A stretch of 64,000 bases of DNA, from assembly GCF_005116675.2 (NCBI RefSeq), contig NZ_CP050699.1:2379001-2443000 (forward strand), in the 5' to 3' direction. A model generated the notes under the pieces. That model was not told the origin of the DNA. It saw only the letters and a list, made by a program, of their open reading frames with translations, and ran no database searches. Below, one piece after another: positions 14,140 to 21,503 of this stretch. The number at the start of each line of letters is the position of its first letter. Position 1 is the first letter of the stretch. Made by a program: the position numbers and the translations under genes. The DNA comes from Desulfosediminicola ganghwensis (GTDB lineage Bacteria > Desulfobacterota > Desulfobulbia > Desulfobulbales > Desulfocapsaceae).

Positions 14140-14149
14140 TATTCATAAA

Positions 14150-14184
14150 AAACCTCCGGGGAATTCCTTCCCGGAGGTTTTTTT
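14150..14184 (+). terminator. Rho-independent terminator of the amino-acid ABC operon
   Basis: A perfect 11-bp stem (14150-14160 with 14170-14180) with seven T residues from 14178. It separates this operon from the Fur-boxed metal operon. Confidence 0.9.
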
Positions 14185-14220: not shown

Positions 14221-14239
14221 GATAATGAAAATCGTTTTC
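14221..14239. promoter_or_regulatory. Fur box upstream of the metal ABC operon
   Basis: GATAATGAAAATCGTTTTC matches 16 of 19 positions of the classical Fur box GATAATGATAATCATTATC and has the expected dyad. It lies 125 bases before the start of the binding-protein gene. This points to repression by an iron- or manganese-loaded Fur-family protein. A candidate -10 (TGATATAT) lies around 14273-14280. Confidence 0.75.
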
Positions 14240-14363: not shown

Positions 14364-15293
14364 ATGTTCAGAATAATACTGGTTTTGAGTGCCTGTTTTT
14401 TACTACTCTCTGCCGTTGGCAATGTCGGGGCTATGGAGGCCGGGACTCCTTTTAAAGTAGTCGCGTCCACCACCCAGATTGCCGATTTTGCCAGGCAGAT
14501 AGTTGGTGATCGCGGCGAAGTGCTGAGTGTACTGGCACCGGGCGCCGATCCCCACACCTACCAGCCGACGCCGGCTGATGTACAGTTGGTTCTGGCGGCA
14601 GATCTCTGCCTTGAAAACGGAATACATCTGGAAGGTAAGAGCTGGATGGCCACTCTGGCTAAAGATGCCGGTAAACCTCTGGTAACGACTACCGAAGGAC
14701 TGGCGCCTTTGAGTATAGACCAGGGTGGCGAAAGTATCATGGACCCCCACGCCTGGTTTTCACCGAAAAATGTGGCTCTGTATGTCAATAATATCACCAG
14801 GGCCATGATGAAATTTGATCCCGAAAATTCCAGCGAATATCAAGCCCGGGCCAAGCTCTATCTGCAGCAACTCAGGGTCCTCGACGGCTGGGTACGCGAG
14901 CAGGTGAATCGTATTCCGCCGGAGCGCCGTATCCTGGTAACCACCCATGATGCTTTCAACTACTTCTGCCGGGAATATAAGTTCAACCCGAATAATGATT
15001 TTCTCTCTATTGCCCCGGTCGGCTGGTCTACAGGCGCTGAAGTGGGTGCGGGTATTACACCCGAGCGCCGGCGAATGGTGGTACAGTCGATCAAGGACTC
15101 AGGTGCTCCCGCAATTTTTGTCGAAACCACTATCAACCCCAAGCAGATCAGGGAAATCGCCAGTGAGACAGGGGTGAAAATCGGCGGGGCGCTCTATTCC
15201 GACTCCATGGGGCCCGAAGGAAGCGCCGGGGAAACCTATATCGGCATGATGCGGGAGAATGTGCTGCTGATAGTGAATGCACTCAGTCAATAA
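14364..15293 (+). CDS. Metal ABC transporter substrate-binding protein (ZnuA/TroA/MntC family)
   Basis: A 309-residue cluster A-I binding protein. ATG 14364 follows AGAGGA and opens a signal peptide ending about VGNVGA; an in-frame TTG upstream lacks these. Metal-ligand histidines are visible in GADPHTYQPTPADV and MDPHAWFSP, with a third in TTHDAFNYF and an acidic ligand near GALYSDSMGPEG. The zinc-type His-rich loop is absent, which with the Fur box and the DtxR-fused permease favours manganese or iron over zinc. First gene of a four-gene operon with the genes at 15316, 15824 and 16638. Confidence 0.9.
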   Translation: MFRIILVLSACFLLLSAVGNVGAMEAGTPFKVVASTTQIADFARQIVGDRGEVLSVLAPGADPHTYQPTPADVQLVLAADLCLENGIHLEGKSWMATLAKDAGKPLVTTTEGLAPLSIDQGGESIMDPHAWFSPKNVALYVNNITRAMMKFDPENSSEYQARAKLYLQQLRVLDGWVREQVNRIPPERRILVTTHDAFNYFCREYKFNPNNDFLSIAPVGWSTGAEVGAGITPERRRMVVQSIKDSGAPAIFVETTINPKQIREIASETGVKIGGALYSDSMGPEGSAGETYIGMMRENVLLIVNALSQ

Positions 15294-15315: not shown

Positions 15316-15834
15316 ATGAGATTTGTCCTTACAGCAGTAATCTGGATCGTCATAGTGGGAGGGCTGTGGGGATACACCCGGCAGCGGCTGCAGGCTGAGG
15401 CGGGAATTGAGCGCATTCAGCCGCAGCTGGTTCAGGTTACACAGAAGTTCGATCTTATCCTGACACCTACTTTTTCCGTTGAGCCCGACCCTTTTGCGCT
15501 GCAGGTAACGGATGAGCTTGCGGTCACTATGGATTTGCGTATCAATGGCCAGCAGGTCGCAATTGCCGCTGATAGTCTGCAGCGAGGAGTCCCGTTGGTG
15601 ATCGAGGATGTTCGTGGCCTGGTGGAAGGGCAGAATGAGATTTATGTCCAGGCTAGCCCACCGTTATCTGAGAGCGAAAAATCACATGCGGTGAGAGTCC
15701 AGCTCAGGAGAGCGAGTTCATCACTGATGGATAACACTATCTGGGCAAGTCAGGGAGCGAGAGTGCTGGGTACGGTGAATTTTGTTTTAACCGCCAGGGG
15801 TGATAGTGGAACAGGGGAAGCAGATGAACACTGA
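15316..15834 (+). CDS. Membrane-anchored hypothetical protein in the metal transport operon
   Basis: A 172-residue protein with one N-terminal membrane segment (FVLTAVIWIVIVGGLWGY) and a mostly beta, soluble remainder, so probably periplasmic. The family is not recognised. It is 22 bases after the binding-protein gene and its end overlaps the ATPase gene by 11 bases, so it is translated with the transporter. It may be an accessory factor for the importer, but that rests only on location. Confidence 0.7.
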   Translation: MRFVLTAVIWIVIVGGLWGYTRQRLQAEAGIERIQPQLVQVTQKFDLILTPTFSVEPDPFALQVTDELAVTMDLRINGQQVAIAADSLQRGVPLVIEDVRGLVEGQNEIYVQASPPLSESEKSHAVRVQLRRASSSLMDNTIWASQGARVLGTVNFVLTARGDSGTGEADEH

Positions 15835-16645
15835 AAAAACAGTTGAGGCACGATCAGATTTTGCGGTTGAGGTGGAACATTTGACGGTCAGCTATCATGC
15901 ACGGGCGGCCCTGCTCGATGTAAGCGTGAGTATTGAGCATGATCAACTGGTAGGGGTTATTGGCCCCAATGGTGCAGGAAAATCCACTTTTATCAAGGCA
16001 GTTCTCGGTTTCGTCAAGCCGGATCTCGGTACGGTGAGAATCAACGGCAAGAATGTGCAGAAGGTAAAGGGGCAGGTGGCCTATGTGCCCCAGCGTGGCT
16101 CTGTTGACTGGGATTTTCCCATCACGGTCCAGGAAGTGGCGCTGATGGGACGTTATCAGAAAATTCCCTGGTATACAACACCAGGCCGTCGTGACCGGGA
16201 AGCTGCTCTGGAAGCGCTCGAAATGGTGCGAATGGAAGATTTTGCCGACCGGCAGATAGGTGAACTCTCAGGCGGACAGCAACAGCGGGTGTTTCTTGCC
16301 AGGGCGCTCTCCCAGGGAAGTGATATTCTCCTGCTTGATGAACCTTTTGCCGGAGTAGATGCGGCCACTGAAAGGGCCATCCTCGATGTGCTTGGCAGGG
16401 CCAAAGAGGCTGGCAAAACCCTGGTGGTGGTACACCATGACCTTGCGACAGCTGCCGAGTATTTCGACAAGCTCATCCTGATCAAACAGCGACTTTATGC
16501 CTACGGCACGCCGGAGATGGTGTTGCAGGAAGAACTGCTCAGTAAAGTATATGAAGGCCGCTTGCGGATCTTTGCAGATCTGAAAATGGGCGGGGCGGCT
16601 GCAGGCACACCTGTAGGGACAGTAAAGGAGGAGAGCAATGCTTGA
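15824..16645 (+). CDS. Metal (Mn/Fe-type) ABC transporter ATP-binding protein
   Basis: A 273-residue ATPase. Walker A is GPNGAGKSTF, the signature [16 protein letters not shown], Walker B DILLLDEPFAGVD, and the switch histidine is in VVVHHDLATA. The Q-loop stretch VPQRGSVDWDFPITVQ is typical of manganese/iron ATPases (MntB/SitB/TroB). ATG 15824, with AGGGGAAG upstream, is preferred to an earlier in-frame GTG (15800). It overlaps the preceding gene by 11 bases and the following permease gene by 8. Confidence 0.92.
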   Translation: MNTEKTVEARSDFAVEVEHLTVSYHARAALLDVSVSIEHDQLVGVIGPNGAGKSTFIKAVLGFVKPDLGTVRINGKNVQKVKGQVAYVPQRGSVDWDFPITVQEVALMGRYQKIPWYTTPGRRDREAALEALEMVRMEDFADRQIGELSGGQQQRVFLARALSQGSDILLLDEPFAGVDAATERAILDVLGRAKEAGKTLVVVHHDLATAAEYFDKLILIKQRLYAYGTPEMVLQEELLSKVYEGRLRIFADLKMGGAAAGTPVGTVKEESNA

Positions 16646-17900
16646 TGCATTTCTTGCACCGCTTCAGGAGACCTATTTTCAAAAGGCGCTCATTGGTGGG
16701 TCCATTGTAGCGGTGGTGGCCGGTGTGGTTGGCTGCCTGGTGGTGTTGCGGCGTATGGCGTTTTTGGGTGATGCCCTCTCCCACGCCATGATCGCCGGTG
16801 TGGCCGGCGGTTACCTGGTTATGAAGATGTTCTTTGGCCTTGAGGCCCATGCCCCGGGTATGCTGCTCGGCTCCTTGATCGCAGCAATAGCCACAGTGGC
16901 TTTGATCAGCTTTGTGTCAAGGGTATCGCGTATCAAGGAGGACACCACCATCGGGATCATGTATACCGGGATTTTCGCCCTTGGTGTTGTCGCAGTTTCC
17001 GTCTTTCGGCACTATATCCATATTGATCTCATGCATTTTATCATGGGTGATATTCTCGGGGTGGCCGATACCGATCTCTGGGTAAGTGCTTTTACAGCAG
17101 CGATAGTGCTGACAATTATCATCCTCTTTTTCAGGCATTTTCAGATTGCCACATTTGACCCGGTCATGGCTGCCTCCATCGGCCTGCCTGTGCTGTTGCT
17201 CGACTACCTGTTGACGATATGCGTTTCCCTGGTGGTGGTGAGCGCAGTGAGCATGGTTGGAGTGATCCTGGTGGTCGGGCTGCTTATCACTCCCGCCGCA
17301 ACCGCTTACCTGCTCAGTGACCGGTTGGATCGCATGATGGTACTCGCCGGAATTTTTGGGGTGACCAGTGTTATTGGCGGTCTCTACCTTTGTGTCTGGC
17401 TTGATTCCGCCGGTGGTGGCGCGGTGATGCTGTTTTGCACCCTGCAGTTTCTGGTGGTTTTGGCTGTCGCTCCCAAATATGGCCTGCTGGCCCGCTGGCT
17501 GCGCCTGAAACGACTTGTTCCCCAGCAAGTGGTCGAAGATGTGCTGACCACCATCCTAAGGCATGGTAAAGCCACTTCACTTCCAGTGATTCGAACCTAT
17601 GTGGAAAGTGGTCAGGGGGGGCTGCGAAAAGCACTCAAGCGTATGATTCAGGATGGCCTTATCGCAGAAGAGGTCGAGGGGTATGTTCTTACGGCAGAAG
17701 GTCGCAAGGAAGCGGATAAGGTACTCAGAGCGCACAGGCTCTGGGAGGCATATCTGGAGCGGATTGGAACACCGAAAGAAGAACTGCATACCACCGCCCA
17801 TCAACTGGAGCACATCGGCGATGCCGCTGAATATCTTGACGAGCGATTGGGGAAAACAAAGAAAGATCCGCATGGACAGGTTATCCCGGAACCTCGTTAA
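16638..17900 (+). CDS. Metal ABC permease fused to a DtxR-like regulator domain (YtgCR-like)
   Basis: A 420-residue fusion. Residues about 1-290 form an ABC-3 metal permease with 8 or so membrane segments and motifs GDALSHAMIAGVAGGY and LLITPAATAYLLSD. Residues about 295-420 resemble the DtxR/MntR family: a winged-helix part (LPVIRTYVESGQGGLRKALKRMIQDGLI, LTAEGRKEA) and the metal-binding/dimer part with AHRLWEAYL and HTTAHQLEHIGDAAEYLDERLG, ending DPHGQVIPEPR. The ancillary-site ligands of DtxR (His79, Glu83, His98) and Glu105/His106 have counterparts; the Cys102 position is His. Chlamydia YtgCR has the same architecture and releases its repressor part by cleavage; whether that happens here is unknown. 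Last gene of the operon. Confidence 0.9.
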   Translation: MLDAFLAPLQETYFQKALIGGSIVAVVAGVVGCLVVLRRMAFLGDALSHAMIAGVAGGYLVMKMFFGLEAHAPGMLLGSLIAAIATVALISFVSRVSRIKEDTTIGIMYTGIFALGVVAVSVFRHYIHIDLMHFIMGDILGVADTDLWVSAFTAAIVLTIIILFFRHFQIATFDPVMAASIGLPVLLLDYLLTICVSLVVVSAVSMVGVILVVGLLITPAATAYLLSDRLDRMMVLAGIFGVTSVIGGLYLCVWLDSAGGGAVMLFCTLQFLVVLAVAPKYGLLARWLRLKRLVPQQVVEDVLTTILRHGKATSLPVIRTYVESGQGGLRKALKRMIQDGLIAEEVEGYVLTAEGRKEADKVLRAHRLWEAYLERIGTPKEELHTTAHQLEHIGDAAEYLDERLGKTKKDPHGQVIPEPR

Positions 17901-18054: not shown

Positions 18055-19083
18055 TTAATAGCTGTTCTCACCTAGCTGCACCTTCCCTCTAAATGTCCAG
18101 TAAATGATCGCGGTGTAGGAAAGGACCATGGGCATACCAATTGCCACGATCAACAGGCCGATCTTCTGGGTCAGTGGGCTTGAGGCTCCGTTGAAGATGG
18201 TGATTGAGTATTCAGGGTTGTTTGTCGCCGGCAGCAGGTTTGGGTAAAGAGCTGCGCTGAACAGGAAAACCAGCACCGCAATGGCGAAACAACTGCTGAT
18301 AAAGGCATAAAAGGGTTTTTTCTGCTGAATGGCCCTGTATATATTAGCAATGGCCAGAAAATTGAGCAGGGGAACGAGCCAGAGAATCGGGTAGTCGCTG
18401 AAATGGTGGATGGAGGCGGGTACAAAGAGTGTTGACCAGAGAGTGACAACTATAAAGAGAGCCAGGAAAGCAAAATATGTACCTTTCATCCAGTGAAAGA
18501 GGCGATCCTGTAACTCTCCTTCCGTTTTCATGTACAAATAGATTGATCCGTGCATGGCGAGGAGCGCCACGGTCATCAGACCAACATTGATACTGAAACC
18601 GTTGAGCATATCGAGCATTGTACCCTGGTAGTCACCGAGTTCCGAGATGTTCAAACCTTGCATCAGCGTACCAATTGCCACACCGAAGAGCAGTGCCGCC
18701 AGTGTCGATCCTGTAAAAAAAAGAATGTCCCATAGGGTGCGCCAGGCTTTGCCCGATCGTTTTGAGCGAAACTCGAGTGAGACGGCGCGGAAAATCAGGG
18801 CAAAGAGCAAAGCAACGAAGGGGATATAGAAGGCGCTGAATATTGAGGCGTAGGCGTTGGGGAACATGGCAAAGAGTGCCCCGCCAAAAGTCACCAGCCA
18901 CACTTCGTTGCCGTCCCAAAGGGGGCCTATTGAGTTCATTACCAGTCGCCGCTCAACATCCGTCTTTGCCACAAAAGGATGCAGTATGCCTACTCCCAGA
19001 TCGAATCCGTCTAGGATGGCATAGCCGATCAACAGTACGTTAAGCAGAATAAACCAGATTATACAGAGTAATTCGGTACTCAT
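18055..19083 (-). CDS. cydB: Cytochrome bd ubiquinol oxidase subunit II
   Basis: A 342-residue membrane protein. Recognised by the N-terminal LDGFDLGVGILHPF and GPLWDGNEVWLVTFGGALFAMFP motifs conserved in CydB. With CydA it forms the high-affinity cytochrome bd quinol oxidase that reduces oxygen to water without proton pumping. Its ATG overlaps the cydA stop (ATGA, 4 bases), so the two are translationally coupled. Length is somewhat below E. coli CydB (379). In an anaerobe it would serve oxygen detoxification or microaerobic respiration. No CydX-like frame follows. Confidence 0.95.
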   Translation of the reverse strand: MSTELLCIIWFILLNVLLIGYAILDGFDLGVGILHPFVAKTDVERRLVMNSIGPLWDGNEVWLVTFGGALFAMFPNAYASIFSAFYIPFVALLFALIFRAVSLEFRSKRSGKAWRTLWDILFFTGSTLAALLFGVAIGTLMQGLNISELGDYQGTMLDMLNGFSINVGLMTVALLAMHGSIYLYMKTEGELQDRLFHWMKGTYFAFLALFIVVTLWSTLFVPASIHHFSDYPILWLVPLLNFLAIANIYRAIQQKKPFYAFISSCFAIAVLVFLFSAALYPNLLPATNNPEYSITIFNGASSPLTQKIGLLIVAIGMPMVLSYTAIIYWTFRGKVQLGENSY

Positions 19084-20639
19084 ATCGAGCCTCCCTCTGC
19101 CTCTTCTTTATCAAGGCGGGCGTGCTGGCGGTCCATTGCAGCGTGCCGAATGCCATGGGTGTCGGTTTCGTCATGTTCTTTAAGTGGTGTGGGGCCGGTT
19201 CGTATTTTCCTGTCGAGCACCATGATCCACACCGCAGCAAGTGCAAGATAGAGCAGGGTGAAAAGCGCCAGTGAGGTCTTTGCTTCTTCGACACTTACTG
19301 CTGCACTCACGGAGTTACTGGTCCTGAGGCCGAGAGTCTCATCATAGTTATAAAAACCGTCGGGACCTGTAACGAGGTCTGTACCATCGTCAGTCCACAC
19401 AATTGGCGGATGAACGGTCCAGGGTTGGCGACCCACCTCTGCAGCTATCCAGCCTGCCTGGTTGGCAACCATGACAAAGCCGATGGCGAAAACGAAACTC
19501 CAGAGTAGCCATCGCTTATTCTGTATTGTTTTTCTATAGTTGTAGTACAACCCAAGTCCGGTGAGGACGATCATAAGTCCGCCAAAGCCAACCATGGCGC
19601 GCCAGGAAAGATAGGGGATAATGATAGGCGGCCGATCTTCTTTTTTGAAACGGTCGAGCCCTACGACTTTCTTGCTGAAGGTGAAGTCATCAAACATCAT
19701 GAAGCTGAGGCCGCCGGGGATGCTCAGATCAAAGTGTATCTTCTCCGCCTCACCGTCCGGCCAGCCGATAAGGTTCAGGTCTCCCCGGCCGGTGTCAAAG
19801 TGTGCTTCAAAAGCGGCCAGCTTCTCCGGTTGGTATCTGTAGGTGTTCTGGGCCTGGGTATGACCATTTATTCCCAGACCCAATGAGGCGATAAATGCAA
19901 GGACCAAAGCGCCATTAAAGGATTGCTTGGCGAATTGCTGGTGGCGATTTTTCAGGAGGTAGTAAGCAGAGACCGAGAGCACGAAGAACGCGCCGACAGC
20001 AGCTGCCCCAAGTAAGGTGTGGCTGAGCCGTTGTACCGTGGTGGGGTTAAAGACCAGATCCCAGAAATTGACTATTTCAGCCCTGCGCTGAACGACTCCA
20101 TCAACCACCCAGGGAGCGAGGCTGGTTGTACCGTCGGTCAGGGTCTGTTCGCGCATGATCTCCACGATATGATGTCCGGCGGGTGTCTGCTGCCAACTGT
20201 TGGCCACGATGATCCAGATGGCCGAGAAGGTAGAGCCGAGCGCGACCATGTACACACTGAAGAGATAAAAGCCCCGCTTCACTCTTTCCCTGCCGAAAGC
20301 GACAATGGCAAGAAAGCCGGACTCCAGAAAGAACGCAAAGATTCCCTCCGCGGCAAGGGCGCTGCCGAAGACATCCCCGACAAAACGTGAGTAGGTGGCC
20401 CAGTTGGTGCCGAACTGAAACTCCATGACAATGCCACTGGCGACGCCGATGGCAAAGTTCAGGATGAAGATCCTGGTCCAGAACTGGCAGGCCACCGCGA
20501 ATGATTTGTCCTTGCTGAGGTAGTTTCTCGTTTCCAGGTAGGCCAGAATGATGCCCAGACCGATGGTCAGGGGGGGGAAGATGTAATGGAACATTATCGT
20601 GAAGGCAAACTGTAGTCGCGAAAGTAGAACAACATCCAT
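19080..20639 (-). CDS. cydA: Cytochrome bd ubiquinol oxidase subunit I
   Basis: A 519-residue haem-binding subunit. Typical stretches are [24 protein letters not shown] (with the N-terminal haem-ligand His), [55 protein letters not shown] and [10 protein letters not shown] place the start at ATG 20639 ([10 protein letters not shown]) because GGAGG precedes it by 7 bases; an upstream TTG would add five residues. First gene of cydAB. The upstream region is long and uncharacterised. Confidence 0.95.
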
Positions 20640-21503
20640 AAATGAACCTCCCAAAGACTGAGCTGTCGGAGTTTGACTCTATTGACTGACGCATTACGAC
20701 GAGAATTGCCATTGTGGATATAGCAATCCTATCGTAAAAAAAACATGAAAACAAATGGATCATGCAGGGAAAGAAGGACGTTGGGGGAGTTCATGGCTTA
20801 CATGAGATAAACGCTGTCAGAAGCGGTGTAGTGAATACGGTGCAGGCAATTATCTTTTTAGCTGAAAAGAGGCATTGCCTCGCATCTCCATGAGGCGACG
20901 AGGGTAGTCTTTTCTTGATGGCCTCACCAGCTGTCTACGCATTGGCATCTACAGAAAAAACTCTGAATGCTTGCTAGATGTAATAGGGGAAAAAGGAATA
21001 ACTCATATATCCAGTTATCTGATTCTTAGAGATATTTTACGATTATTATCCCTGTCTTGCTGGTTGTGCAAAGAATATGTGCACATTGAAGAACGAACCA
21101 ATTGATAGCAGGGGAAGAATTTCGTGCGTATTTTTCTTGATGTCAACGAGTCCAGTGCTTACCTGATAACACAAACATCGTGCCCGGGGGGGTATGGAAC
21201 TAATCGCTCTAAATCCGATGGTTATTTGCCATGCAAATCTCCGGGAGGATGAAAACGCAAGGCGATTTTAATTTTAACCTGATATTTGAAGAGTTTTGTT
21301 TGTGACGTTCTGGAGTTCCAATTTTTCTGGTGTATAGAACGTGAGTGAAAAACAGCGTCAAAGATCACAGGCGAACGTTTTTTTGTAGCAATTATGTCAT
21401 GTCTTGTGTAATGTGCGCGGTTTTCTGAAGAGCTTTTCGGTTGTCAGGCGAACAGCATGCCTGTTGAAGTGAAGTTCCCAGAGTTTTGAATGTTTCTCAG
21501 AGT
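20640..21503. other. Long divergent intergenic region, cydA to fusA
   Basis: Nearly 1.1 kb (20640-21739) lacks a convincing gene. The first 860 bases are AT-rich with scattered stops in all frames. They presumably hold the cydA promoter on the minus strand and the start of the fusA leader. No tRNA, CRISPR or known riboswitch motif was seen here. The last part is a candidate structured RNA and terminator, listed separately. Confidence 0.4.

Follow-up and report, generated by a model that had tools for sequence, protein, structure and literature searches.

A DtxR-type metal domain fused to an ABC-3 permease in Desulfosediminicola ganghwensis may sense metal for the importer

The operon and its fused permease

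The window, by which we mean the whole 64-kb stretch (64,000 nucleotides) of Desulfosediminicola ganghwensis DNA analysed here, contains a metal-importer operon that opens with a Fur box and continues with the genes of a binding protein, a small protein, an ABC ATPase and a permease, the only one of the operon, which runs on into a DtxR-type metal domain (Table 1). The hairpin ahead of the Fur box looks like the terminator of an upstream amino-acid ABC operon and would part that operon from the metal importer; the terminator scan that also picked it out gave a count in the window not above that of shuffles. Directly past the metal-importer operon, on the opposite strand, lie ORFs (18055-20654) that by the look of their sequence are cytochrome bd oxidase-like.

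Table 1. Features of the metal-importer operon and of its fused permease, with positions in the window
Feature	Position	Strand	Basis or remark
Terminator-like hairpin	14147..14183	+	14-nt inverted repeat, 100% complementary, then T; also in terminator scan
Fur box GATAATGAAAATCGTTTTC (predicted)	14221..14239	+	16/19 to consensus
ZnuA/TroA-type metal-binding protein	14364..15293	+	PF01297 E 1e-76; ORF start possibly TTG 14337
Small protein, no known family	15316..15834	+	Predicted membrane anchor and beta-sandwich
Importer ABC ATPase	15824..16645	+	PF00005 E 7.3e-32
Permease fused to DtxR-type metal domain, 420 aa	16638..17900	+	Pfam PF00950 and PF02742
ABC-3 permease domain, residues 12-277	16671..17468	+	PF00950 E 7.5e-62
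Helix 283-309, continuous in model, from permease C-terminal extension into DtxR-fold helix 1	17484..17564	+	AlphaFold2
Winged-helix region, residues ~290-352 (predicted fold; most DNA-contact positions not conserved)	17505..17693	+	
DtxR-type metal-binding and dimerisation domain, residues 352-418	17691..17891	+	PF02742
Metal-ligand positions H366, E370, H384, H388, E391, H392	17733..17813	+	Alignment to IdeR

The earlier note had read a Fur box upstream of the operon, and we also find it as a predicted site. Scored against a 19-nucleotide sequence that we take to be the Fur consensus, it is the only site with three or fewer mismatches in the window, where 0.01 would be expected. Genome-wide, seven places lie within three mismatches of this consensus (eight matches, one place matching on both strands) versus one match to the reversed pattern, and three Fur-family proteins are encoded. 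Among 26 related upstream regions of 450 bases each (24 from window-type operons, one of these from the same genus) no Fur box was found, the best score being 13/19. Therefore, the three-way circuit of transport, attached sensor and Fur that the note had proposed would not stand as a general feature and could hold, at best, for this species and a few of its relatives; Fur control of the operon looks recent or local.

PDB relatives of the binding protein include YfeA, MntC and TroA, and the ATPase has an MntA-type model as its top NCBIfam match, under that model's cut-off. We do not consider the label of a Mn/Fe-type importer, used by the note, to be established, since the binding protein has a His aligned to a Glu of YfeA that we take to be a metal ligand, and since its top NCBIfam match is a zinc model, AztC, also below cut-off. 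Judged from the sequence, manganese, iron and zinc are all possible substrates. In the permease, D45, H49 and D102 align with the Asp-His-Asp triad described for Mn importers (PMC8487065, PMC11779740), the first two by alignment to PsaC and D102 by numbering offset; this arrangement is reported to be common to transition-metal ABC importers generally (PMC8487065).

The small protein (172 aa) is matched by neither Pfam nor NCBIfam models at E <= 0.1, and a fold search gave no match at E <= 0.001. Its model (mean pLDDT 81.6) predicts a membrane helix followed by a beta-sandwich. It adjoins the binding protein in 25 of the 26 related loci with a binding-protein match (tblastn). Nine of 14 aligned small proteins end in HDH or in HDH plus one residue, and the window protein ends in DEH.

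The fusion itself is present within one ORF, as the note had read it. PF02742 (Fe_dep_repr_C) matches the C-terminal domain with an E-value of 1.4e-17 (63.9 bits against a cut-off of 27), and the ABC-3 permease model is matched as well. Of the winged helix plus metal-binding region that had been described, the metal domain is thus confirmed by Pfam; the winged-helix model PF01325 (Fe_dep_repress) has no match on residues 1-420, and that half survives as a predicted fold. In the AlphaFold2 model (mean pLDDT 90.2, pTM 0.80), the best Foldseek match of the C-terminal part is the DtxR-family repressor DR2539, over 127-128 columns (TM 0.78-0.80 by target length, rmsd 2.0-2.1), so that the prediction retains a winged-helix fold which escapes Pfam. 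A DtxR-family match for residues 295-420 is therefore found both by PF02742 and by structure, and the Foldseek matches of this part include DNA-bound repressors. The permease part resembles PsaBC (TM 0.88-0.92 by target length). No SH3/FeoA domain was matched by Pfam on the 420-aa protein.

Distribution of the fusion

Within the window's class, 22 of 242 genomes have a match at E <= 1e-40, and 20 of these carry the fusion: D. ganghwensis itself and 19 others at 75-86% identity. This rules out that the fusion is an artefact; the joining of an ABC-3 permease and a DtxR-type metal domain is real, conserved and of known architecture. The remaining two matches are a distant fusion (L024) and a form that ends after the winged helix (L025, 1477-2580). 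The latter is a distant permease with a winged-helix-like tail that stops before the metal domain, and this domain was not seen in other frames just downstream. Two of the three other genomes of the same genus that were searched have no match at E <= 1e-40.

When the metal domain was used to scan named genomes, there were at least 591 pattern matches and 451 relatives among the matches listed, of which the best 80 were kept. Thirty-three of these 80 loci have a fused ORF, a proportion that is no prevalence because only the best of the listed relatives were retained. The fused loci come from Desulfobulbales genera, SAR324, Citrifermentans, Planctomycetota, Verrucomicrobia, Kiritimatiellae, Chlorobi and Bacteroidetes, Spirochaetaceae and Thiotrichales; a large share of these records are metagenome bins. 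Strains of Desulfogranum have a close orthologue. This spread agrees with a 2017 review, which credits Thompson et al. 2012 with permease-DtxR fusions in 11 phyla (PMC5599777).

For the counts below we use 54 distinct fused proteins, which remain after dropping L003 (same gene as L004), L025 (no metal domain), L026 (a fragment) and L027, L028, L032, L034, L037, L039 and L041 (identical over residues 101-250 to class genomes). Twenty-five of them are close orthologues (>=68% identity to the window protein), and the partial protein L033 belongs to the 54, outside the 25. Two sets of standalone proteins serve for comparison. The first consists of 66 DtxR-type ORFs, stop-to-stop frames found by our own profile in the 47 non-fused loci of the best 80; these loci, the ones without a fusion among L045-L106, are lower-ranked scan matches, and one ORF counted as standalone, in L099, is possibly a fusion cut by the contig end. 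The second is drawn from the window's class and comprises 30 orthologues of a single standalone DtxR encoded by D. ganghwensis (L002-type), the best-scoring loci of 194 genomes with a match; the other own-class family was left out of this control.

Some proteins of the scan have further domains. Two fused permeases (L042 and L072) have an additional C-terminal FeoA match and are perhaps nearer to the original fusion. Two longer ORFs, L045 4854-5918 (355 aa) and L051 5603-6652 (350 aa), combine Fe_dep_repr_C with two FeoA stretches, lack PF01325 and each adjoin a shorter DtxR-type ORF.

Metal ligands and DNA-reading part

The ligand positions of DtxR and IdeR, which we take to be H79, E83, H98, C102, E105 and H106, correspond by alignment to IdeR to H366, E370, H384, H388, E391 and H392 of the fused permease. 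All six are invariant in the 25 close orthologues, with a His at the C102 position, which upholds the statement of the note that counterparts of the DtxR metal ligands are retained. Across the 54 fused proteins, H366, E370, E391 and H392 are kept without exception, 46 have H and 8 have D at the H98 position, and at the C102 position H occurs in 29, E in 15, D in 9 and M in 1. Helix 1 of MntR carries metal ligands; here E300, in helix 1, is found in all 25 close orthologues, and the position is E in 43 of the 54. The continuous helix 283-309 has further invariant residues in these 25 proteins (P295, Q297, D301, L303, L307 and R308). Such retention of the ligand positions would suit sensing, and the metal domain may still bind metal.

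The part of the domain that would read DNA gives a different picture. PF02742 is found in 54/54 fused proteins and PF01325 in 1/54 (L044, E 0.0082). The same two models match 66/66 and 47/66 of the standalone ORFs from non-fused loci, 11/11 and 11/11 of the standalone DtxR ORFs within fused loci, and 30/30 and 30/30 of the L002-type orthologues. In the 25 close fused orthologues the mean pairwise identity is 0.90 for the permease and 0.79 for the ligand helix; for the turn and recognition helix it is 0.47 in one comparison and 0.42 in another (300 pairs), compared with 0.91 and 0.86 (435 pairs) in the standalone L002-type proteins, whose ligand helix averages 0.75. When pairs are matched at 65-75% identity of the metal domain, the turn and recognition helix reaches 0.415 in the fused proteins (158 pairs) versus 0.832 in the standalone ones (185 pairs). 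Pair by pair, the identity of this segment falls below that of the metal domain in 299 of 300 fused pairs versus 33 of 435 standalone pairs.

The residues of the IdeR recognition helix reported to contact DNA (PMC8464063) were placed on the fused proteins by phmmer alignment to IdeR. The positions of S37, P39, T40, S42, R47 and R50 are variable or deleted across the 25 fused orthologues, K being commonest at P39 (17/25); the Q43 position is K or R in 25/25 and the T44 position A in 21/25. The standalone control has a single letter at S37, P39, T40, S42 and Q43 in 30/30 and also differs from IdeR, at P39, Q43, T44 and R47. Departure from IdeR therefore proves nothing by itself, and the argument lies in the missing conservation. 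DNA reading by IdeR is moreover described as largely indirect (PMC8464063). On the other face of the evidence, L329, A332, L333 and M336, hydrophobic and with helix-face spacing, are largely kept in the fusions, so the winged-helix fold seems constrained.

Net charge of the turn and recognition helix is 0.56 in the fused proteins versus 2.37 in the 30 standalone ones. The net charge of the whole winged helix was tried as a sign of DNA binding and rejected, since it does not separate the groups (close fused, n = 25, -0.56; distant fused, n = 29, +2.45; standalone orthologues, n = 30, -0.23; standalone in fused loci, n = 11, +0.73).

The Pfam, conservation and contact comparisons use overlapping data, and all three agree in direction. 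Since the DNA-reading part is poorly conserved and the metal part conserved, the domain may sense metal for the importer and not switch genes.

This bears on the analogy with Chlamydia YtgCR drawn by the note. The layout is indeed shared: in Chlamydia trachomatis, too, an ABC-3 permease from a metal-importer operon runs on into a DtxR-type domain whose ligands are conserved (PMC5599777). Cleavage of YtgCR is reported to free a fragment that serves as an iron-dependent repressor (PMC5599777, PMC6504234, PMC7755916). By the same route, a protease would sever the DtxR-type domain from the permease, and the fragment would dimerise with metal and repress its own operon, for which the predicted winged-helix fold would be suited. 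We regard this as unlikely here. Nearly every fused pair shows lower identity in the turn and recognition helix than in the metal domain, PF01325 is matched in a single fused protein, and the genome has, besides the Fur-family genes, two further DtxR-family genes, one of them with a recognisable DNA-binding domain. Furthermore, a search for a shared operator found each exact palindrome (arms of 5 or 6) in at most 2 of 25 upstream regions, which does not exceed shuffles; this test is weak because the promoters have diverged. The claim that the attached domain represses its own operon is thus not borne out, and a YtgCR-style repressor reading of this permease is doubtful.

The two systems also differ in composition. 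Chlamydia trachomatis has YtgC and YtgD, in contrast to one permease gene, an extra small protein and a Fur box here, in a genome with other DtxR-family and Fur-family genes. Most DNA-contact positions are unconserved in our set, which comprises no Chlamydia sequences and hence no recognition helix of YtgR. An uncut protein might instead bind DNA from the membrane, as has been raised for YtgC (PMC5599777), and the retained winged-helix prediction would allow it. The poor conservation of the DNA-contact positions speaks equally against such a tethered repressor, which we consider very improbable.

A possible metal sensor on the transporter

The best reading of these data, to which we assign a probability of about 0.5, is that the fused protein forms the channel of a PsaBC/MntBC-type importer and bears, on its cytosolic side, a metal sensor that feeds back on transport. 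The importer resembles PsaBC and MntBC in its permease fold, in the Asp-His-Asp positions, in having one kind of permease and in a C-terminal cytosolic helix. The PsaBC and MntBC permeases are reported to be homodimeric (PMC11779740), and the one permease gene of the operon likewise implies a homodimer, in which a pair of DtxR-type domains would lie next to each other beneath the membrane. Cytosolic metal would fill their sites, and the two domains would pair or change shape, as metal makes DtxR repressors do. This change could pass through the helix that is predicted to be common to the permease C-terminal extension and sensor helix 1, and would hold the transporter inactive. The winged helix would be kept as a structural lever and not as a DNA reader, and control of transcription would fall to Fur in this operon and to standalone DtxRs in others.

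The attachment point can affect transport, because MntBC without its cytosolic C-terminal helix was reported to reach the membrane unchanged in expression and to lose transport (PMC8487065). The available text on PsaBC and MntBC reports no DtxR-type domain; in the window protein, by contrast, the C-terminal helix runs on into the sensor fold. With DR2539, IdeR and other DtxR-family repressors the fused protein has in common the metal-binding and dimerisation domain and the predicted overall fold. It differs from them in the His at the C102 position, the undetected PF01325, the unconserved recognition helix, the lack of an SH3/FeoA domain and the attachment to a permease.

The outcome would be substrate feedback (transinhibition) of the kind reported for MetNI and ModABC, where it is exerted by cytosolic domains (PMC10710835). 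The proposed logic is alike, in that substrate binds a paired cytosolic domain and the transporter stops. In those two importers, however, the domains have other folds and sit on the ATPase, and feedback has been shown; for the fused permease we infer it by analogy, with a DtxR-derived sensor on the permease. This position on the ATPase counts against the sensor reading, as do the winged-helix fold that is still predicted and matches DNA-bound repressors, the K or R at the Q43 position, the frequent K at P39 and A at T44, the largely indirect DNA reading of IdeR, the net charge of the whole winged helix, by which the groups do not separate, and the 19 of 66 standalone ORFs that also lack PF01325. 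A further objection is YtgR, a protein of like layout for which DNA binding and repression have been reported (PMC5599777).

Loci with two permeases add a further element. Of the 33 fused loci of the best-80 scan, 13 are window-type, and none of these has a standalone DtxR; among the 20 others, 11 have a standalone DtxR with PF01325 in the same locus, and 10 have two permease ORFs. The standalone DtxRs favour the sensor reading and their absence from the 13 window-type loci counts against it, although the D. ganghwensis genome has two DtxR-family genes elsewhere. Both permeases carry the domain in seven of the ten (L046, L048, L052, L055, L061, L082 and L100), and in 7/7 the ligand letters are HEDDEH on the first permease and HEH(H/E/D/M)EH on the second. 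A pair of domains within a heterodimeric transporter would explain why both permeases bear one with different, fixed letters, and a freed repressor needs no such pair. The idea leaves unexplained the 3/10 loci in which a single permease bears the domain.

The same loci help to weigh the possibility that the domain is a metal-handling or structural appendage, which receives incoming metal or stabilises the importer and regulates nothing. Conserved ligands would also be expected of such a part, the C-terminal helix of the related MntBC is essential, and the distant relative L025 has the winged-helix tail and ends before the metal domain. Against this, the fused proteins keep the ligand positions of both DtxR sites together with the dimerisation domain, which suits sensing, and the paired permeases have different and fixed letters. 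We therefore hold an appendage to be improbable, and return to the sensor on the transporter as the preferred reading.

Extended to the whole group, this reading can be put forward tentatively, at somewhat less than even odds: a widespread class of importers would have converted a DtxR repressor to a sensor coupled to transport, whose paired domains inhibit import when metal is sufficient and whose DNA reading has been lost, and YtgCR would represent a lineage that kept or regained DNA binding. Within open-licence PMC papers, a search for permease-repressor fusions gave two papers on Chlamydia (PMC5599777, PMC6504234) and three whose titles concern other subjects, and DtxR and transinhibition are not mentioned together. 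The texts available take these fusions for a means of producing a repressor, on the model of YtgCR, the single example that has been studied. Should the greater part of the class not read DNA, they would be another form of feedback control of metal import, with a metalloregulator moved from the gene to the transporter. In that case, how ABC-3 importers stop at the protein level would become directly testable.

A related arrangement may exist beside another importer. One of the two further DtxR-family genes of D. ganghwensis (L001, 1327-1989) adjoins a FeoB-like ORF and encodes a DtxR-type protein with a FeoA domain, in which PF01325 is absent at E <= 1; loci of its orthologues have a FeoB match in 28 of 30 cases. 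FeoB importers may thus possess an analogous metal sensor that lacks the usual DNA-binding domain.
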